Notes under the pieces: model-generated
The model's input: the letters and a program-made list of their open reading frames with translations, nothing else
Told to the model about the DNA's origin: nothing
The model's database searches: none
Shown: positions 23,071 through 34,096 of the stretch, in pieces
How the letters are laid out: each line of letters begins with the position of its first letter
Position numbering within the stretch: position 1 is the first letter of the stretch
Position numbers and translations under genes: made by a program
NCBI GenBank assembly: GCA_030609775.1
Contig: JAUWTD010000006.1
Span: 1 to 38,965, forward strand
From: Candidatus Altarchaeota archaeon
GTDB taxonomy: Archaea > Altiarchaeota > Altiarchaeia > IMC4 > QMZM01
Direction: 5' to 3'
DNA: 38,965 nt

Positions 23071-25893
23071 CTACAAATATTTTTTAAGATAAGCCCCAGT
23101 ATAACTTTTTTTGTTTCTAGATACCTCCTCAGGCGTACCCTGAGCTACGATCTCGCCTCCCAGGTCACCTCCGTGGGGCCCAAGATCAATTACATAGTCT
23201 GCTGATTTTATCACATCCAGGTTATGCTCTATTACAACAACTGAATTCCCTTTATCTACTAGATTATTTAATACAGCTATGAGCTTTTTCACGTCATGAA
23301 AATGCAGGCCAGTCGTAGGCTCATCAAGAAGATAAAGGGTTTTTCCTGTCGCCTTTTTAGAAAGCTCCCGTGTAAGCTTAATCCTTTGAGACTCACCCCC
23401 GGAAAGGGTTGTAGAAGACTGCCCCAGACTAATATATTCAAGCCCCACATCACAGAGGGTCTTAAGTTTCCTTTGGATGGATGGAATATTCTCAAACAAC
23501 ACAAGGGCTTCCTCAACACTCAACGCCAAAACATCCGCAATATTTTTTCCTTTATATCTGATGTCAAGTGTTTCTTTGTTATATCTCCTACCTTTACATT
23601 CCTCACATTTTATGTAAACATCCGGCAGAAAATTCATTTCAATCTTGATCACACCCTCACCCTGACATGCCTCACACCGGCCCCCCCGAACATTAAAAGA
23701 AAACCTCCCCGGCTTATACCCTCTCATCTTACTCTCATGAGTCTGAGAAAACAGCTTCCTTATATCATCAAAGACCTTAGTATATGTCGCAGGATTACTC
23801 CTAGGGGTCCTCCCAATAGGGCTCTGATCTATTATAAGAACCTTATCAACCAAACCGTCATATACTATGTCCTCATGTTTACCTGCATTCTCCCTTGAAC
23901 CATACAACCGGTTTTTAAGCCCCTTATAAAGCGTATCATAGATAAGCGTAGATTTACCTGAACCCGACACACCCGTGACAAGAGTCAAACAACCCACAGG
24001 AATTCCTACACGAATGTTTTTCAGATTATGCTCCCTTGCACCAACAACTTCAATAAATTCCTCTACTCTTCTCCTTTTTTTTGGGACACCTATACCCAAC
24101 CTACCCGAAAGATACCTGCCGGTAAGAGATTTATCATCTTTTACAATCTCCCCGGGCGTACCTTCAAAAACAATATGGCCTCCATGAATCCCCGCACCCG
24201 GACCAATATCAACCACCCAATCAGCATTCCTTATAGTGTCCTCATCATGCTCAACAACAATTAACGTATTACCTAAATCCCGCAACCTAAACAAGGTATC
24301 AATAAGCTTATGGTTATCCCTCTGATGCAACCCAATCGACGGCTCATCAAGAACATATAAAACACCCACTAAATTCGAACCTATCTGCGTTGCAAGACGA
24401 ATCCTCTGAGATTCACCCCCAGACAACGTACCAGCCTGCCTTGACAAAGTCAAATAACCCAAACCCACCTCAACCAAGAAATTAAGCCTAGAAATAATCT
24501 CTCTAAGAAGCTGCTTAGCGATTATCTTTTCCTTTTTATTGAGCTTTAAACCACTGAAAAATTTGAAACAATCCTCCACCGAAAGATCAGTTACATCAAT
24601 TATTGACTTATCCTCCACTTTCACCGAAAGCACCTTCTTTTTAAGTCTCCTGCCCCTACACACCGGACACGCATTCACCCGCATAAACCGCTCCATCCAT
24701 TTCCTCCTAGACTCCGAGCCAGTTTGCTTATACAACCGCGCAAACATCGGAACCACTCCTTCAAACTCCCCGGAATAACTAAAAGACGAATCCCTCTTCT
24801 TTGATGTGAAACTATAAGAGATCCTCTCCTTGGTTCCATAAAGAATTATATCCATTGCTTGGTCTGAAAGCGTCTTAACCGGATCCAACATCGAAAACCC
24901 AAACTGTTTTGCAACACTGCCAATCTGCCTGAGCCTCCAACTGTCAATGATGTTCCCAAATGCAAGAATTCCTCCATCTGCTATGCTTTTTTCTTTATCT
25001 GGAATAATCAGATCCGGATCAAATTCCATGGTTATGCCCAAACCCTCGCATTTTTCACAGGCCCCAAACGGACTATTAAACGAAAACATCCTCGGTTGAA
25101 GCTCCTCAAAGGTTAAACCACATACGGGACATGCCATCAAGGAAGAATAAAGTTTTTCTCTATTATTCTCTGCATCAAACACAATCAAAAGACCCCCTGA
25201 CTTCTCTAACGCATTCTCTACTGCTTCAGCAAGCCGGGAGGTATCAGACGAATCAAGGCGATCAATTACGACCTCAATATCATGTTTCTTGTATCTTTCT
25301 AAACTAATCTTTTCATCCGTTGAAATTATTTCTTTATCAACCCTCACACGCACATAACCTTCCTTGTGCAAATCCTCTAAGAGCTTATCATATGAACCCT
25401 TTTTTTGCCTTATCAAAGGAGAAAGCACGATTAAGTTACCTGAAAAATCGTTTCCTATGGTTTCTGTGATTTTTTCAGCGGTCTGGGATGTGATCGGGAT
25501 ATTATGTTCCGGACAATAGGGTGTGCCTATGCGTGCAAAGAAAAGCCGCAAATAATCATATATCTCGGTGACGGTTCCAACAGTTGAACGAGGATTCTTT
25601 GAGGTGGTCTTCTGTTCAATAGCTATCGCAGGAGAGAGGCCTTCAATGCTGTCTGCGTCTGGTTTATTCATGAGGCCTAGAAACTGGCGGGCATAAGATG
25701 AAAGCGACTCAACATACCGTCTCTGCCCTTCCGCATAAATGGTGTCGAATGCAAGCGTGGACTTACCTGACCCAGATAAACCGGAGAACACAATCAAACT
25801 GTCTCTTGGAAGGGTTAAACTAACGTTTTTGAGATTATGTTCTCTTGCACCCTTTATCACCAGATCCTTTTGCGTGCGCTTCTTTACTCCCAT
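23071..25893 (-). CDS. uvrA: Excinuclease ABC subunit A
   Basis: A 940-residue damage-recognition ATPase with two ABC modules. Module 1 has Walker A GLSGSGKSTLAFDTIYAEGQ (about 37-56); module 2 has GVSGSGKSTLIYDT near 640. The two ABC signatures (LSGGESQRIRLATQ and LSGGESQRIKLTRE), zinc sites (CPVCGLTF...CEKCEGLG; CEACQGEG...CEECKGRR) and Walker B residues (VLDEPSIGLH, LLDEPTTGLH) are intact. The start is ATG at 25893 (MGVKKRTQKD), the family N-terminus; 15 further open codons upstream have no similarity. It is the first gene of the uvr operon, divergent from gpmA. Confidence 0.97.
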   Translation of the reverse strand: MGVKKRTQKDLVIKGAREHNLKNVSLTLPRDSLIVFSGLSGSGKSTLAFDTIYAEGQRRYVESLSSYARQFLGLMNKPDADSIEGLSPAIAIEQKTTSKNPRSTVGTVTEIYDYLRLFFARIGTPYCPEHNIPITSQTAEKITETIGNDFSGNLIVLSPLIRQKKGSYDKLLEDLHKEGYVRVRVDKEIISTDEKISLERYKKHDIEVVIDRLDSSDTSRLAEAVENALEKSGGLLIVFDAENNREKLYSSLMACPVCGLTFEELQPRMFSFNSPFGACEKCEGLGITMEFDPDLIIPDKEKSIADGGILAFGNIIDSWRLRQIGSVAKQFGFSMLDPVKTLSDQAMDIILYGTKERISYSFTSKKRDSSFSYSGEFEGVVPMFARLYKQTGSESRRKWMERFMRVNACPVCRGRRLKKKVLSVKVEDKSIIDVTDLSVEDCFKFFSGLKLNKKEKIIAKQLLREIISRLNFLVEVGLGYLTLSRQAGTLSGGESQRIRLATQIGSNLVGVLYVLDEPSIGLHQRDNHKLIDTLFRLRDLGNTLIVVEHDEDTIRNADWVVDIGPGAGIHGGHIVFEGTPGEIVKDDKSLTGRYLSGRLGIGVPKKRRRVEEFIEVVGAREHNLKNIRVGIPVGCLTLVTGVSGSGKSTLIYDTLYKGLKNRLYGSRENAGKHEDIVYDGLVDKVLIIDQSPIGRTPRSNPATYTKVFDDIRKLFSQTHESKMRGYKPGRFSFNVRGGRCEACQGEGVIKIEMNFLPDVYIKCEECKGRRYNKETLDIRYKGKNIADVLALSVEEALVLFENIPSIQRKLKTLCDVGLEYISLGQSSTTLSGGESQRIKLTRELSKKATGKTLYLLDEPTTGLHFHDVKKLIAVLNNLVDKGNSVVVIEHNLDVIKSADYVIDLGPHGGDLGGEIVAQGTPEEVSRNKKSYTGAYLKKYL

Positions 25894-26025
25894 TCTCCTA
25901 AACCACAATAAAATAGAATTAGATTCCAAAAACCACAAAATACAGTTAAAAATATGGTTTTTTATACAAAAAAAATAGTCAAACCAAAAAGGGTTTTATA
26001 TCATTTAAAATACTAATATCCTATC

Positions 26026-26794: not shown

Positions 26795-27688
26795 ATGGGA
26801 CTATGGCAGACATGGGGTAGGTATAGGAGATTTAGTCATTCTAGCGCACTTCCTTATGCTGCATTCTTTCTTATAATGCTTGGATTAACCATGCTGCTTG
26901 AACCCAATAGACATTATGCTTCCATGATGCTGGGTGTCATTACATTATATCTAGTTATCCTGGGCTTTGACATGTTCAGAGAGATAGCCATAAAAAATAA
27001 GTTGGCTGGAAAAAAGATGATGTTTATCCAAGATGTTCCCCTATACTATGAATCCACACAGGCTCTCGTAGTTGGTTTATGGCTGATAATTTTGGCGTTG
27101 GCAGCTTTCCTTGATTCTAGCACACAATACCTACACAAAATCCTTGCAGTATTTCTTCTGGTTCCGGGATTCTATATGTTTAAATACTTCCATTGGAGGC
27201 GCAACATCAAAAACGAAGACAGATCCTATATCCCCCCTAAATTCAATAAAAACGAAGACATACATTATATACCCACATACCCTCACATACTTCAGGCAAC
27301 CGAGACCCTGACTGCGGGCTTCTTCATGCTGATGCTTGCAGAGTATGCTATGTCCCAGTACAAGTAAAACCAGATAGAAGCAATCATAGGTTCAATATTC
27401 CTATTATCTACTCTTTGGATGATCAGTTACGCCCGCAAAATCATCAAATACGATAAAATAAAAGACAACAAAGAATACATTAACTTCAGAAAAATAAACC
27501 AGGCCATGATTTTTGGACACATCCTGATGCTGATTGGCTTGGCAGCGATACTATGGCCTCCTCCACGATACCCTCAACAAATAATACCTGCAGCAGCCCT
27601 GCTAATAGCACCCTTATTCCTAAACTATGCAAGAGAAAAAATCCAAAAAATACCTACCCTGGAAAAAAACAATTGTCTGATACGTTAA
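26795..27688 (+). pseudogene. Four-repeat membrane protein interrupted by an in-frame TAA
   Basis: One frame runs 298 codons to 27688, broken only by TAA at 27365-27367. The first part (190 residues) and the continuation (about 106 more) together make four like units of two membrane helices with a polar linker. Unit starts are near LPYAAFFLIMLGL, QALVVGLWLIILALA, TLTAGFFMLMLAEY and MIFGHILMLIGLAA. The TAA falls inside unit 3, right after its first helix, where unit logic expects continuation. The simplest reading is a nonsense mutation (CAA or AAA to TAA) or a sequencing error; two separate proteins are less likely. SD GGGTGA is at 26785-26790. I do not recognise the family. Confidence 0.75.
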
Positions 27689-27828
27689 AACTATCTAATT
27701 CTCTATTTCCTTCAGGTTTCATCTATCTGCACCTATCAGAACATTCTTTGACCATGGTTTTTTTCGTTATATACCTCATAGCTCATATATTCAACACAAC
27801 AAACGAAAATCATAGTTATGGACGAAAA

Positions 27829-28101
27829 ATGAAACTACAAAAAACCTGGCTCGGACAATTTTATCTCACCATCCCACGGAAACTCATAGACTCCCCAAGC
27901 AGAGACTCCAGTGCAGGCTCTTCATCCGATATTGAAATCCGCATACCTGATGAACTTATAAACTCCGAAGACAGAGATTCTTCTCCCCATATCAAAATAT
28001 ATATCCCACAAAAAATCGTGAAAACCAAAGGATGGAAGAAAGGACAAGACTTAAAAACCAGATTCAATGAAAGAGGGAATCTGGTGTTGGAGGATGTCTA
28101 A
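27829..28101 (+). CDS. AbrB-like protein with triplicated leading strand
   Basis: A 90-residue protein. The C-terminal 37 residues look like one AbrB/SpoVT swapped-hairpin domain (IKIYIPQKIVKTKGWKKGQD, then a GNLVLED strand). Upstream are two partial copies of its first strand and helix: FYLTIPRKLIDSPSRDSS (about 11-28) and IEIRIPDELINSEDRDSS (about 35-52). So the strand-IP-helix unit occurs three times with a period of about 20-24 residues and Ser/Asp-rich linkers. AbrB folds are usually DNA-binding regulators or antitoxins. The start is ATG at 27829; CATATATTC at about 27784-27792 may be its TATA box. No toxin gene is nearby. Confidence 0.6.
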   Translation: MKLQKTWLGQFYLTIPRKLIDSPSRDSSAGSSSDIEIRIPDELINSEDRDSSPHIKIYIPQKIVKTKGWKKGQDLKTRFNERGNLVLEDV

Positions 28102-28262
28102 AAAATTGTTTTGTATCTACCTGGATGAGTCAAAAGGGATCGTGGTTTTAAAGAGGCTTCTTCAAAAGTGTTAGTTATTGGTTATAGTTTGTTCCCTTAG
28201 ATTCTCAGGAACCATTTCCTAAAAAACCCTAAACTTTGCAGCTTTTGAACCTTAGATAGCTA
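28102..28262. other. Intergenic stretch before tRNA-Cys, no gene seen
   Basis: 161 bp between the AbrB-like gene and tRNA-Cys. No frame carries recognisable protein similarity. On the minus strand, a T-run (GTTTTTTAGG, about 28217-28226) downstream of the tRNA could serve as its terminator. Confidence 0.4.
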
Positions 28263-28334
28263 GCTGGGGGGGAGATTTGAACTCCCGTTGGTCGGTCTGC
28301 AGCCGACTGCCTAACCGGACTTGGCCACCCCAGC
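28263..28334 (-). tRNA. trnC: tRNA-Cys (anticodon GCA)
   Basis: A 72-nt cloverleaf. The acceptor stem pairs GCTGGGG with CCCCAGC; the anticodon stem GTCGG/CCGAC encloses loop CTGCAGA with anticodon GCA; the T arm is GGGAG-TTCAAAT-CTCCC; the variable loop is 4 nt. There is no intron and no encoded CCA. A box A-like AATAAATAAC on the minus strand at about 28358-28367 sits about 26 nt before the 5' end. Confidence 0.96.
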
Positions 28335-28493: not shown

Positions 28494-29033
28494 ATGGTTG
28501 AAGAAGAAGATACAGGCACAGACAGTTTAGATGATTCAACAGAAAAAATAGAAGAAACCCAAGAAGATGTTGAGGCAGTTGAAGAGGGTGAGGGTATAGG
28601 CCGAGAATATGCTTTAGCTATGGCTCCTGTTGTGCGGATGATGCGAGAAGAGCTAGATAATGACAAGATCATAAGAAGCCGGGTTAAACGTGAAATGAAT
28701 CTGTGGCTTGAAAAAATATGCCGGAAAGTCACGACAAAGATTAATGAGTCAGAGTATACTGTAGTGGAGTTAGATGACTTCAAGACTGCGATAGAGCCCT
28801 ATGAGATGATCGACGATGTCGAACAGGAGCGTAGAAGAATAATTGCAACACTTGAAAAGATAAAACAAGACTGCGATTCATTGATACGTGATGTGAGCCG
28901 GAAATTCATTACATATGATGCGGTGGATATGGACATATCCGAGCCCCAGGACATATCCGGATCCCAGGATATTTCTGAGCTAGACGATGCAGATGATGCA
29001 GACGATGTAGCTGCTGTAGGACAGGAAGATTAA
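28494..29033 (+). CDS. Acidic-tailed histone-fold-like/coiled-coil protein
   Basis: A 179-residue protein in four parts. Residues 1-36 are very acidic. Residues about 41-106 follow the archaeal histone pattern: L-A-M-A-P-V-V-R-M-M aligns with the LPxAPxxRxx start of helix 1, a long helix 2 contains RVKREMNLWLEKICRK, and YTVVELDDFKTAI matches the T-x-x-x-D-x-x-x-A start of helix 3. The conserved Arg of the RT pair is missing (EYT). Residues about 107-138 are a likely coiled coil, and 142-179 an acidic tail with a repeated DIS/QDIS motif. No database search was possible. It leads a run of translation and lipid genes. An alternative is an unrelated helical protein. Confidence 0.55.
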   Translation: MVEEEDTGTDSLDDSTEKIEETQEDVEAVEEGEGIGREYALAMAPVVRMMREELDNDKIIRSRVKREMNLWLEKICRKVTTKINESEYTVVELDDFKTAIEPYEMIDDVEQERRRIIATLEKIKQDCDSLIRDVSRKFITYDAVDMDISEPQDISGSQDISELDDADDADDVAAVGQED

Positions 29034-29057: not shown

Positions 29058-29474
29058 ATGGCAGAATACGAATACGGTAAATTATTGGATAGGGCTTGGG
29101 AGAATCTGCCTGAGAAACTGAAGGATCATTCAAGGTTTGAGATACCTAAGGTAGACTCCTTTGTGGAAGGCAACCAAACGATAGTCCGAAACTTCAATGA
29201 AATCTCAAGTATGCTTGGAAGAACTCCAAGACATATCCAGGTCTACCTATCCAAGGAGCTTGCTGCGTTAGTTATAGTGGAGGCTAAGAGACTTATCATT
29301 AATAGGGTGCTTAGGCAGGATATGATCAATAAGCGAATAAATGAATACGCTAAAGAATATGTGATCTGTCATGAATGCGGACGTCCTGACACAAAGTTTA
29401 CTGAGTTAGGGGGCGGAAAAATCATCAAATGCGAGGCATGCGGCGGATGGCGTCCTCTCCGGAAGATTAAGTGA
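29058..29474 (+). CDS. eif2b: Translation initiation factor aIF2 subunit beta
   Basis: A 138-residue protein, the usual archaeal size. The alpha-beta core has FEIPKVDSFVEGNQTIVRNF (about 27-46) and GRTPRHIQVYLSKEL; the C-terminal zinc ribbon has CHECGRPDT and CEACGGWRP. It is part of the aIF2 trimer that delivers initiator Met-tRNA. The stop overlaps the GTG start of DUF424, a pair linked in many archaea. It follows the histone-fold-like gene by 24 nt. Confidence 0.95.
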   Translation: MAEYEYGKLLDRAWENLPEKLKDHSRFEIPKVDSFVEGNQTIVRNFNEISSMLGRTPRHIQVYLSKELAALVIVEAKRLIINRVLRQDMINKRINEYAKEYVICHECGRPDTKFTELGGGKIIKCEACGGWRPLRKIK

Positions 29475-29776
29475 AAGTGATGTATGCGAATGTCTACCGG
29501 AGGGAAGATATTCTTGTTGCAGCATGCGATAAAGAAATAATCGGAAAAACTTTTACCCAAGGAGATAAGTGTATTAATGTCTCAAAGAATTTCTATTGCG
29601 GGGAATTGATGCCTGTACTTAATCTAAGTGATATGTTGTCTGAGGCAACTATCGCAAACCTAACCGGAAACAATGTAGTTGATTATGCTTTATCTCTTAA
29701 GTGTGTAGATGAGCAGCATGTGATAGAGATCTCAGGTATAAAACATGCCCAAGTCATTCTGCTATTAGACCAATGA
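29471..29776 (+). CDS. DUF424 family archaeal protein
   Basis: A 101-residue conserved archaeal protein. It has the family features AACDKEIIGKTF near residue 18 and NFYCGELM near 40, followed by an alpha-beta region ending in KHAQVILLL. The start is GTG at 29471, overlapping the aIF2-beta stop as GTGA; an ATG at 29480 is also in frame. Its constant pairing with aIF2-beta suggests a role near translation initiation or RNA, but no activity is known. Confidence 0.88.
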   Translation: MKVMYANVYRREDILVAACDKEIIGKTFTQGDKCINVSKNFYCGELMPVLNLSDMLSEATIANLTGNNVVDYALSLKCVDEQHVIEISGIKHAQVILLLDQ

Positions 29777-29777
29777 G

Positions 29778-30788
29778 ATGAAAGATATAGAACTTCCAAG
29801 AAAAATCATAGTAGGCGACGATGCAATAGAAAACGTCTGTGAAGTAGTATCTGAATTAGGTTTAATTGGAAAATCCTTGGTGTTGGCAGACCAGAATACT
29901 GTAGCTATTGCAGGAGACAAGGTAAGTTCCATGCTTGATTCAGATATATGTCTCCTTACCGGTCCGATGAATGAGGGAATTTCTGATGCAACCGATGCAA
30001 TAAAAGAAAAAAACATATCCTATGTTGTTGGAGTGGGTGGAGGAACTGTAATAGATACGACAAAGGTTTGCGCATACCATACAAAAATACCTTTCATAAG
30101 TATCCCTACTGCCGCATCCCATGACGGAATCACGTCTTCGCAGGCGTCATTGAAGGGGGAAAAGCCAACGTCTATGAAGGTGCATTCAGCGCTTGGAATA
30201 ATTGCAGACACTAAGATAATCGGCTCAGCCCCTCATCGGTTGACTGCTGCCGGATGCGCGGATGCAATATCAAATTACTCGGCTGTGTTAGACTGGAAAC
30301 TGGCGCATGAAGAAAAAGGAGAATATTATGGAGACTACTCAGCTACATTGTCTATGATGAGCGCCCAGATAATCATGTATAATGCAGAAAAGATCAAAGA
30401 CCATGTTGCAATACTTGTCGAAGCATTGATAAGCTCAGGTGTGGCGATGGGCATAGCCGGATCCAGCAGACCCTGCTCTGGTGCAGAACACCAATTCAGC
30501 CACGCACTGGATATGATCTGTCCAAAGCCTGTGTTACATGGAGAACAATGTGGTGTTGGAACAATTCTTATGACCTGCTTGCATGGGAAAGACTGGGAAA
30601 AAGTAAGGGAGGCCTTAAAGACAGTTAAAGCCCCTGTGAACTCAAAGGAATTAAATATTAGTGAAGAATACATAATTAAAGCATTGACGATGGCACATGA
30701 CATACGGGATAGGTATACTATCCTGCGGGATGGTTTATCTGACAAAGAAGCAGTTAAGCTTGCAAGAGAGACCGAGGTCATAGATTGA
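29778..30788 (+). CDS. egsA: Glycerol-1-phosphate dehydrogenase
   Basis: A 336-residue NAD(P)-dependent enzyme that makes sn-glycerol-1-phosphate from DHAP, the stereochemical mark of archaeal lipids. The dinucleotide site is VGVGGGTVIDTTK (about 87-99), then SIPTAASHDGITSSQ (about 112-126). Metal ligands are expected in GCADAISN (Asp), GAEHQFSHAL (His) and HGEQCG (His). It starts 1 nt after the DUF424 stop and is 6 nt before GGGP synthase, so the first two lipid steps are one transcription unit with translation genes. Confidence 0.95.
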   Translation: MKDIELPRKIIVGDDAIENVCEVVSELGLIGKSLVLADQNTVAIAGDKVSSMLDSDICLLTGPMNEGISDATDAIKEKNISYVVGVGGGTVIDTTKVCAYHTKIPFISIPTAASHDGITSSQASLKGEKPTSMKVHSALGIIADTKIIGSAPHRLTAAGCADAISNYSAVLDWKLAHEEKGEYYGDYSATLSMMSAQIIMYNAEKIKDHVAILVEALISSGVAMGIAGSSRPCSGAEHQFSHALDMICPKPVLHGEQCGVGTILMTCLHGKDWEKVREALKTVKAPVNSKELNISEEYIIKALTMAHDIRDRYTILRDGLSDKEAVKLARETEVID

Positions 30789-30794
30789 GGATAC

Positions 30795-31538
30795 ATGATG
30801 GATACGATAGCGAAATGGTTGCATGAGAAAGGCGAGAAACTGCATTTCACGTTAATAGACCCTGACAAACAAAAACCCAAAGAGGCTGCGAAGATGGCAT
30901 CAGATTGCAGCTCTTATGGCACCGATGCGATAATGGTGGGCGGTTCAACCGTAAACCGGATAAATGTCGGGGAAACCTCTGCTGCGATAAAGGATTCAGT
31001 TGATGTTCCTATTATCCTGTTTCCTAATTCAGTTAACGCAATTACTACGTTTGTTGACTACATATTCTTTATGAGTCTGCTTAACTCCAAGAAAAGGAGA
31101 CTTTTGATAGAGGAACAGTTAGCCGGAGTAATGGCTGTGAAAGAATCAGGTATCTGTCCAATAGGGATGGGATACATTGTCGTAAGCACAAGCACGAAGC
31201 CGACGACAGTAGAGAGGGTAACTGAATTAGATGTTATCCGGGAAGATGACATAGATAAGCTTGTGCGGTATGCTTTAACTGCAGAATACTATGGAATGCA
31301 TTGTGTCTATCTTGAGGCAGGTTCTGGTGCAGAGAAGCCTGTGTCTAATGAAATGATCAGCGCAGTGCGTGATGCCCTGACTATCCCTATCATTGTCGGA
31401 GGCGGCATAAGGGATGGAAAGACTGCATTAGATAAAGTCGAGCATGGGGCTGATGTAATCGTGACTGGTACGATAGCAGAAGAAAAAACACACAAGATTA
31501 AGGAGATAATAGACGCGGTTAACGGCTTCGTGTTCTAG
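30795..31538 (+). CDS. Geranylgeranylglyceryl phosphate synthase
   Basis: A 247-residue TIM-barrel prenyltransferase joining geranylgeranyl diphosphate to glycerol-1-phosphate, the first ether bond of archaeal lipids. Marks are HFTLIDPDKQKP (about 16-27), VGGSTVNR (about 48-55), FPNSVNAI, CVYLEAGSGAEKP (near 170) and the phosphate-binding VGGGIRDGKTA. GAGG lies 8 nt before tandem ATGs at 30795 and 30798. It directly follows egsA. Confidence 0.95.
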   Translation: MMDTIAKWLHEKGEKLHFTLIDPDKQKPKEAAKMASDCSSYGTDAIMVGGSTVNRINVGETSAAIKDSVDVPIILFPNSVNAITTFVDYIFFMSLLNSKKRRLLIEEQLAGVMAVKESGICPIGMGYIVVSTSTKPTTVERVTELDVIREDDIDKLVRYALTAEYYGMHCVYLEAGSGAEKPVSNEMISAVRDALTIPIIVGGGIRDGKTALDKVEHGADVIVTGTIAEEKTHKIKEIIDAVNGFVF

Positions 31539-31573: not shown

Positions 31574-33313
31574 ATGCCAGAGACCTTTGTAAGAGAGCCG
31601 ATTATTTCAGTTCTCGGGCACGTAGACCACGGAAAGACAACGTTTCTAGACTGGATTAGGGGGTCTGTTGTGTCTTCAAGAGAGGCCGGAGGAATAACCC
31701 AACACATTGGGGCAACTGATGTGCCCTTTGAGACAGTAAAAGAGATTTGCGGTTCCCTGCTTGATACATTGAAACTGAAGGTTTCGCTGAGAGGTTTTTT
31801 ATTTATTGACACACCCGGGCATGCGGCATTCAGTAACCTACGGAAGAGAGGTGGAAGTGTTGCAGACCTTGCCATACTCATAGTTGACATCAACGAAGGA
31901 TTGATGCCTCAGACAATTGAGTCAATACAGATTCTAAAAGATAATAGAGTTCCGTTCATTGTTGCAGCCAACAAGGTAGATGCAGTGTCTGGATGGAATA
32001 TAAAACAGGATATAAACCACCAACAAGGCCATGTAAAACAACACTTCGACAATAAATTATATAAGCTCATGGGGCAGCTTTCTGAACACGGATTCGATTC
32101 AGATTTGTTCTCAAACATAAATGACTTCGCAAAACATGTTGGAATCGTTCCAATCTCTGCTAAAAGCGGCTATGGGATACCTGCGTTGCTTATGGTTTTA
32201 ATGGGTCTCACCCAACAATATCTCACGGGTAAACTGACAATAGATGCTAGCTCACCTGCGAAGGGAACAATACTTGAGGTTAAGGAGGATAAAGGATTAG
32301 GTGTCACAATAGATGCGATCATCTATGATGGAGTCATACGGAAAGGGGATTCGATAGCTGTAGGCAGCAAAGAACCCATCCTAACAAAGGTTAAGGCTCT
32401 TTTGAGGCCTAAACCCCTTGACGAGATGAGGGATCCAAAAGACCGATTCACAAACATGCCAGAGGTTTACGCAGCAGCCGGAGTGAAAATAGCAGCCCCC
32501 GGACTAGAAAATGCGTTAGCCGGATCACCCATATACGTGGGTGGACAGGAGATGCTCGACAAACTCAAAGAAGAGATATCTGATGTTGAAATAAGCAGAG
32601 ACCAAAAAGGCGTTATCCTGAGAGCGGATACAATAGGCTCATTGGAGGCGCTCATAAAAACCTTAACTGAAAAAGAAATCCCCATAAAAAAAGCCCTGAT
32701 AGGAAAAGTCTCTAATGCCGACGTGATAGAGGCTTGCGCAGTCAGCCGGGAGGACAAATTTCTAGGAATTGTGCTTGCATTCAATTCAGAGATACTAAAA
32801 GATGCGAAAACATTATCTGAGAGCCGGGATATCCAGATCTTCTGTGGACAGATAATTTATAAGCTCCTTGAAGACTATGAAGACTGGGTGAAAGAAGAGA
32901 AACAGAGAGACCGGGTTCAGTTAGAGAAAAAGATCACCACCCCTGCAAAAATAATGCTTCTGCCTAAACATGTTTTCAGGCAGAGCAAACCTGCAATAGT
33001 CGGAGCCGAGGTTCTCGCAGGAACCCTATCATCTGGAAGCCGGCTTATGAGAGACGACTTGAAAGCTGCAGGCAGAATAAAGCAGATGCAAAAAGAAAAA
33101 GAAACAATAAAAACAGCCAAAACCGGGGACAAAATAGCCTTATCCATAGAAGGCGTAACAGTGGGCCGGCAAATCAATGAAGGAGACATCCTTTACTCCC
33201 TTCTATCACCTGACGAAGTCAAGGAACTATCCGAAGAAGACTTAACCGAAGATGAACTCTCTGTATTAAAAGACCTACAGAAAATACGCAGAGCAAAATT
33301 CAGCTGGAAATAA
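31574..33313 (+). CDS. infB: Translation initiation factor aIF5B
   Basis: A 579-residue GTPase that joins ribosomal subunits. The G domain shows G1 GHVDHGKTTFLDWIRG (about 15-30), G3 DTPGHAAF (about 76-83) and G4 NKVD (about 135). Domain II (GTILEVKEDKGLG), domain III and the C-terminal domain IV are complete. There is no long N-terminal extension, as in archaea. A TATA-like AAATAAAATATATG just before the ATG suggests its own promoter. It converges on the next gene with only 6 bp between. Confidence 0.96.
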   Translation: MPETFVREPIISVLGHVDHGKTTFLDWIRGSVVSSREAGGITQHIGATDVPFETVKEICGSLLDTLKLKVSLRGFLFIDTPGHAAFSNLRKRGGSVADLAILIVDINEGLMPQTIESIQILKDNRVPFIVAANKVDAVSGWNIKQDINHQQGHVKQHFDNKLYKLMGQLSEHGFDSDLFSNINDFAKHVGIVPISAKSGYGIPALLMVLMGLTQQYLTGKLTIDASSPAKGTILEVKEDKGLGVTIDAIIYDGVIRKGDSIAVGSKEPILTKVKALLRPKPLDEMRDPKDRFTNMPEVYAAAGVKIAAPGLENALAGSPIYVGGQEMLDKLKEEISDVEISRDQKGVILRADTIGSLEALIKTLTEKEIPIKKALIGKVSNADVIEACAVSREDKFLGIVLAFNSEILKDAKTLSESRDIQIFCGQIIYKLLEDYEDWVKEEKQRDRVQLEKKITTPAKIMLLPKHVFRQSKPAIVGAEVLAGTLSSGSRLMRDDLKAAGRIKQMQKEKETIKTAKTGDKIALSIEGVTVGRQINEGDILYSLLSPDEVKELSEEDLTEDELSVLKDLQKIRRAKFSWK

Positions 33314-33319
33314 AAAACA

Positions 33320-34096
33320 CTACAACTCGAAATCAATGTCTCCAAAAACAGGGACCTCCACCAGTTTAGGCCTATCTCGTATCGAATGCGTAGTAGTAGA
33401 CTGAATAGTCTTAAATACATGTGATCCAAGGAAAATCCATTTCTTTTTTATGCCTTTAACCTTGAAAAGCGGAGTAATCCCCTTTTTTGCAATAATCTGT
33501 GTGTGAATATTCTCTATATGGGTGGCATGGAATTTTGCATCCGTATCAGCTATATCTATGTTAGCTGCATTAATCTGTCCCTCTGCTTTTAACTCAATTT
33601 TCCCTCCCTTGCCCTGAGAGATAATAATTGTTGCAGACCCTGCTTGAGCGAGTTCAGTGATGACCTTCCACTCTTTTTCCCACTCCCTTCTCTCGTATCT
33701 TCTCATTATTTCTTTTCCAAGAGTGTGTGTATCTTCGATGCAAGGATTCAATATCTTATTTGCTTTAAACACAACACCTGAGGTGTTTTTGAATTCAATT
33801 ATTGCTCCTGCGTCAGCTTTCGTTAATGTGCATCCAGCCACCGGCGGCAAATTACCTGCAGCCTTAAGTGATATTACCACGTTTCCTGCCGACGAATACT
33901 GAAGATTCATCGGAGTATCATCTTCCCTGACCTCAAATTCAATCCCTTTCTCTTTGAGACTAGACTCTCTTTCGAATTTGTTTCCATCCATAACTCCAAT
34001 ATCTCCCAACTTTAGGGTTACTCCCGGAGACCATGTGGCAAAGTAACCTAAACCCTTATATATTTCCTTAAGATACTGTTTTTCTATTAACGCCAT
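33320..34096 (-). CDS. Conserved-looking soluble protein, unrecognised
   Basis: A 258-residue protein that I cannot place with confidence. It has no signal peptide or membrane helix. The N-terminal YLKEIYKGLGYFATWSPG and KLGDIGVMDGNKFERES look like conserved blocks. The middle has several predicted strands (GNVVISLKAAG, AIIEFKN, VVFKANKI) and a helix (GKEIMRRYERREWEKEW), followed by a Gly/Ile-rich strand region (SATIIISQGKGGKIELKA). The C-terminal VPVFGDIDFEL is acidic. An AT-rich box (AAATATTTTATATTAATA, about 34155-34172) lies 60 nt upstream. Possible pore-forming or binding protein, but this is a guess. Confidence 0.7.
   Translation of the reverse strand: MALIEKQYLKEIYKGLGYFATWSPGVTLKLGDIGVMDGNKFERESSLKEKGIEFEVREDDTPMNLQYSSAGNVVISLKAAGNLPPVAGCTLTKADAGAIIEFKNTSGVVFKANKILNPCIEDTHTLGKEIMRRYERREWEKEWKVITELAQAGSATIIISQGKGGKIELKAEGQINAANIDIADTDAKFHATHIENIHTQIIAKKGITPLFKVKGIKKKWIFLGSHVFKTIQSTTTHSIRDRPKLVEVPVFGDIDFEL

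Follow-up and report, generated by a model that had tools for sequence, protein, structure and literature searches.

An ATG-initiated open reading frame (ORF) of 179 residues at the head of a translation and lipid synthesis gene cluster raises the question of whether a divergent, acidic archaeal protein belongs to a known type of histone and, if so, what it would do in the cell. The ORF lies within a 38,965-nt stretch of DNA (hereafter, the window) from a 1.36 Mb genome in 85 contigs, the nearest named kin of which are Candidatus Altiarchaeales/Altiarchaeota MAGs. The first-pass annotation had proposed a tailed coiled-coil histone and had regarded it as an oddity compared with classical histones. 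The architecture it described is that of the published coiled-coil (CC) histones (PMC11390915); the tails and the additional helix are real, whereas the supposed oddity is not, both features being ordinary for this already described family. Judging from its conservation, the ORF is a genuine and old gene, far beyond what chance would produce, because homologues are found across many archaeal genomes (23 of the 61 related or sampled) and at at least 80 named loci.

Table 1 Features of the CC histone gene and its neighborhood in the window
Feature	Coordinates	Strand	Evidence
tRNA-Cys (GCA), divergent	28262..28334	-	ARAGORN
CC histone gene	28494..29033	+	ORF, homologues, AlphaFold2 model, histone-fold matches
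Acidic N-terminal tail, residues 1-38, net -15, low pLDDT	28494..28607	+	Model and charge count
Histone fold, residues 39-105 (helices 43-53, 62-83, 93-104; R48, R51, R61, K65)	28608..28808	+	Model, structural and family alignment
C-terminal heptad helix, residues 106-138, predicted tetramerisation coiled coil	28809..28907	+	Model and family alignment
Acidic C-terminal tail, residues 139-179, net -15, low pLDDT	28908..29030	+	Model and charge count
aIF2-beta (PF01873)	29058..29474	+	Pfam 1.9e-30; 24-nt gap
DUF424 protein (PF04242)	29471..29776	+	Pfam 2e-21; 4-nt overlap with aIF2-beta
Glycerol-1-phosphate dehydrogenase (G1PDH; Fe-ADH_2)	29778..30788	+	Pfam 4.3e-32; 1-nt gap
Geranylgeranylglyceryl phosphate synthase (GGGPS; PcrB family)	30795..31538	+	Pfam 4.2e-52; 6-nt gap
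aIF5B-type translation initiation GTPase	31574..33313	+	Pfam GTP_EFTU 9e-35, GTP_EFTU_D4, IF-2; 35-nt gap

Histone fold, coiled coil and acidic tails

In the AlphaFold2 model of the monomer, built from a 64-sequence alignment, the three fold helices (Table 1) are followed by a fourth spanning residues 106-137, with pLDDT of 94-98 across residues 41-130 and above 90 in all fold helices. The core is modelled as short-long-short, as had been proposed, its best structural matches in the PDB are histone folds, and no clear match to a non-histone family was found. VIA-align superposed the model on HMfA (1b67; Z 6.2, 1.4 Å, 64 residues) and HMfB (1a7w; Z 6.1, 1.6 Å, 64 residues) at approximately 12-14% identity in the structural alignment; the scores of NF-YB and eukaryotic H3/H4 were tied with these, and the Z values are modest, as would be expected for a 65-residue helical domain. 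The best Foldseek matches were all histone folds, none with an E below 0.001. Of 22 homologues, 13 matched PF00808 with an E of at most 0.1 (lowest 1.7e-5), some CC histone homologues exceeding the Pfam cut-off; the window protein alone scored 14.5 bits, under the gathering score of 21.4. The low rmsd across almost all of HMfA, the uniformity of the histone-fold matches, and the independent PF00808 matches together identify the core as a histone fold.

Other profile comparisons were weak. The hhalign alignment to canonical Altiarchaeota histones did not extend beyond helix 1 and a portion of helix 2 (probability 30%, E 5e-4), a phmmer search of the PDB with the single window protein returned nothing meaningful, and the family profile retrieved from the PDB only borderline histone-fold matches (NC2, NF-YB; E 0.09-0.6) amid coiled-coil noise. 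The only NCBIfam match, to the coiled coil of a toxin subunit, is due to chance (E 0.042; it scored 13 bits, whereas the cut-off is 40). Two motifs need rewording. The start of helix 1 does align with that of histones, but it reads LAMAPVVR here and LPFxxAxVVR in relatives rather than LPxAPxxR; the T...D pair at the start of helix 3 is present, but spaced as T-x-x-x-x-D (T89, D94) and not as T-x-x-x-D. The RT arginine is indeed missing: E87 stands in its place, and the column holds P, E, or D, never R, in the 64 homologues. The DNA-contact positions proposed for CC histones (R32, K35, R45, K49; PMC11390915) correspond, at one constant offset of 16, to R48, R51, R61, and K65, which are basic in 73%, 100%, 97%, and 100% of the 64 homologues, respectively.

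The fold is followed, as annotated, by a coiled coil, modelled as a 32-residue heptad helix with a conserved hydrophobic core: positions 106, 109, 116, 120, 123, 127, 130, and 134 are hydrophobic in 64 out of 64 homologues, and the heptad register stands out against column permutations (p = 0.003; 64 homologues). Within this core, Cys127 (window positions 28872-28874) is kept in 63 of the 64 homologues of the alignment (A2), which was gathered with a pattern favouring Cys or Ala at this position. We rejected Cys127 as a family-wide feature; Ile or Val occupies the position in the other aenigmatarchaeal lineage.

Both ends of the protein carry the acidic tails described by the first-pass annotation (overall pI 4.1), which are predicted to be disordered (AlphaFold2 pLDDT 49-66). 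Of the 64 homologues, 60 have a negative N-terminal tail; in two aenigmatarchaeal members, the folds of which are more basic, its charge is close to zero, and tails are absent altogether at two loci, L041 and L044. Fold and coiled coil together have a net charge of -1 in the window protein, compared with +3 to +6 in the tailless aenigmatarchaeal members; being slightly acidic, this part of the protein could have low affinity for DNA.

Family membership and distribution

Schwab et al. (2024; PMC11390915) defined 17 groups of prokaryotic histones, among which the CC histones have a long helix C-terminal to the fold, are predicted to form tetramers through a coiled coil, and commonly bear highly negative tails at either terminus; they are found in Altiarchaeota, Aenigmatarchaeota, Iainarchaeota, Micrarchaeota, and Methanobacteriota. 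The window protein shows all the defining features that were amenable to testing and probably is a CC histone. Its homologues are encoded by Altiarchaeota, Aenigmatarchaeota (37 of 156 genomes of the phylum), Diapherotrites/Iainarchaeota, a MAG labelled Micrarchaeota, Methanofastidiosum, and Methanobacteriaceae, a range that overlaps the published one, in which Altiarchaeota are named. Most have acidic tails, matching the published family. In Methanobacteriales, a homologous single-family protein is present in 132 of 150 genomes, and it is through these relatives of HMfC, not through the HMfC sequence itself, that the link to the described family runs.

The same genome encodes a canonical, tailless histone (G000:C48:7478-7666; PF00808 E 8e-17) in which the RKT motif is present; the CC histone is thus not its only histone but an additional one.

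A different assignment, as a histone-fold transcription regulator of the NF-Y/NC2 type that would bind specific sites at promoters or in the TBP complex, contact other proteins through its helix and tails, and have no role in bulk chromatin, finds some footing in the structural comparisons: NF-YB chains are the top structural matches to the model, NC2-alpha is the best family-profile match among solved structures (E 0.086, not significant), and the low expression of the CC histone of M. smithii (PMC11390915) would suit a regulator. However, the scores of NF-Y, eukaryotic histones, and HMfA/HMfB are tied, the window protein contains no additional DNA-recognition module, and HMfC of Methanothermus fervidus, which is the sole CC histone assayed and is devoid of tails, bridges DNA in vitro, with no sequence selection reported (PMC11390915). 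We therefore consider a regulator of this type unlikely and retain the assignment to CC histones.

Genomic context

As annotated, the CC histone gene heads a cluster that continues with aIF2-beta, DUF424, G1PDH, GGGPS, and aIF5B genes in close succession (Table 1) and would be transcribed as a single unit. Elsewhere, DUF424 is listed among the uncharacterised proteins of archaea that are linked to translation genes (PMC6393860). Upstream, the divergent tRNA-Cys gene bounds the intergenic region that must contain the promoter of the cluster. Elsewhere in the window, the ORF at 27553-28101 (+) contains two repeated stretches near its C-terminus that by eye resemble AbrB-like swapped hairpins, and a 258-aa ORF at 33320-34096 (-) is convergent with the aIF5B gene; neither has a Pfam match (E 0.01). 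The window also holds a full gene for the UvrA excinuclease (23071-25938, -), a repair gene of bacterial type in this archaeon.

CC histone genes form single-gene operons as a rule (PMC11390915), and the window gene, followed 24 nt on by aIF2-beta on the same strand, does not. Since this property is typical but not defining, its lack is no bar to membership of the family. The Altiarchaeota family to which the window genome belongs and one aenigmatarchaeal clade are exceptions to the published rule. In the former, the CC histone gene is located directly 5' of aIF2-beta in all 12 genomes in which both were found; in the latter, it is found between aIF2-beta and DUF424 (L041-L044) or immediately precedes DUF424 with gaps of 0-2 nt (L180, L182, L183). 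No aIF2-beta or DUF424 neighbors were seen for other aenigmatarchaeal CC histones, and the genes of Methanobacteriales and Diapherotrites stand alone. In the sister family, the arrangement directly before aIF2-beta occurs in none of four genomes, and the aIF2-beta-DUF424-G1PDH order is found without a CC histone at L153, L155, L157, L163, and L166, the CC histone of these genomes being encoded elsewhere. Thus, aIF2-beta-DUF424-G1PDH-GGGPS is an older cluster, present without the histone in related Altiarchaeota, and the CC histone was rejected as its defining gene. In the protein tree, the phyla separate, and there is strong support both for the Altiarchaeota group and for the linked aenigmatarchaeal clade, which do not form a joint clade, a topology that would fit a single ancestral linkage as well as two insertions. 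The sole novelty of this locus is its conserved place in the cluster, a minor detail.

The surroundings of the L041-L044 genes include an upstream gene for an OB-fold RPA-like protein, as well as MCM and RFC large-subunit genes, as recognized by sequence; hence, the CC histone sits among replication genes in the linked aenigmatarchaeal clade. One of these contigs (L044; JAEOTG010000321.1) is filed under a Heimdallarchaeota MAG and has the aIF2-beta-CC histone-DUF424 order seen in Aenigmatarchaeota. Another contig of the same assembly carries a further aIF2-beta gene with DUF424 after it, and the L044 contig has probably been mis-binned.

These neighborhoods bring up the question of whether the histone might coordinate the state of chromatin with translation or lipid synthesis, being functionally coupled to aIF2-beta and DUF424 and perhaps acting as an autogenous regulator of the cluster. 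The invariant position before aIF2-beta in the family, the recurrence of aIF2-beta and DUF424 as neighbors in the aenigmatarchaeal clade, and the departure from the single-gene rule all speak for such a coupling. Against it, the older cluster stands without the histone in the sister family, so that its gene order argues only weakly for a functional tie, and CC histones are unlinked in Methanobacteriales, Diapherotrites, and most Aenigmatarchaeota. We regard a coordinating role as very improbable; it is decidedly unlikely as well that a coupling of their level or activity to translation initiation led CC histones to enter the aIF2-beta/DUF424 cluster in two phyla, at differing positions around the gene pair. 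If true, the coupling would amount to a link between chromatin and translation in Altiarchaeota and Aenigmatarchaeota. The conserved linkage offers a small, testable lead on the roles of CC histones and of DUF424.

Proposed mode of action and comparison with known histones

By analogy with HMfC, two chains of the window protein would form a histone-fold dimer contacting DNA through the helix-1 face (R48, R51, R61, K65), and two dimers would join via their long C-terminal helices into a tetramer capable of holding two DNA duplexes, that is, of bridging rather than wrapping DNA. The disordered acidic tails may shield the basic face and so lower or adjust the affinity for DNA, in keeping with the published suggestion that such tails are intramolecular inhibitors (PMC11390915). 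The CC histone would act alongside the cell's canonical nucleosomal histone, and co-transcription with aIF2-beta would tie its level to the translation machinery. The expectation of the first-pass annotation that bridging or regulation is likelier than simple wrapping agrees with what is reported for the CC histone family. That the protein is instead an acidic chaperone handling the canonical histone of the cell, without binding DNA itself, is very unlikely: the strongly acidic tails (-15 each, pI 4.1) and a canonical histone encoded in the same genome would fit, but the basic positions of helix 1 are kept, the tailless L041 and L044 proteins rule out the tails as the core function, and HMfC bridges DNA without tails (PMC11390915). 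With the preferred assignment to CC histones, a divergent, acidic-tailed ORF of an uncultured archaeon joins a family with measured DNA-bridging activity (HMfC), and the genome would thereby encode one histone that wraps DNA and another that bridges it.

Compared with canonical nucleosomal histones, the window protein shares the fold of HMfA, HMfB, and the histone encoded at G000:C48:7478-7666 (1.4-1.6 Å over 64 residues) but differs in having tails and a C-terminal helix and in lacking the RT arginine; it is not expected to take part in hypernucleosomes. MJ1647, the bridging histone of Methanococcales, is likened by description: its dimers are joined by a C-terminal tetramerisation domain, and a similar assembly and DNA bridging would be expected of the window protein, although MJ1647 is restricted to Methanococcales and CC histones have little sequence similarity to it (PMC11390915). 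The RdgC histones (PMC11390915) also combine the fold with a large C-terminal helix in a tetrameric bundle and are encoded by the first gene of a multi-gene operon, but they are only 15-20% identical to CC histones, and their operon encodes an RdgC-like protein and a membrane (TM) protein, neither of which is among the window neighbors. MJ1647, DUF1931, and RdgC histones did not figure among the structural or Pfam matches listed, which carries no weight for or against a relationship. The closest likeness is to HMfC and the other CC histones (PMC11390915), with which the window protein has in common the fold with a long C-terminal helix, the basic positions in register, the occurrence in Altiarchaeota, the highly negative terminal tails, and the presence of canonical histones in the same cell; it differs from HMfC, which has no tails, in being tailed at both ends, and from the family rule of single-gene operons in that its gene heads a multi-gene cluster.
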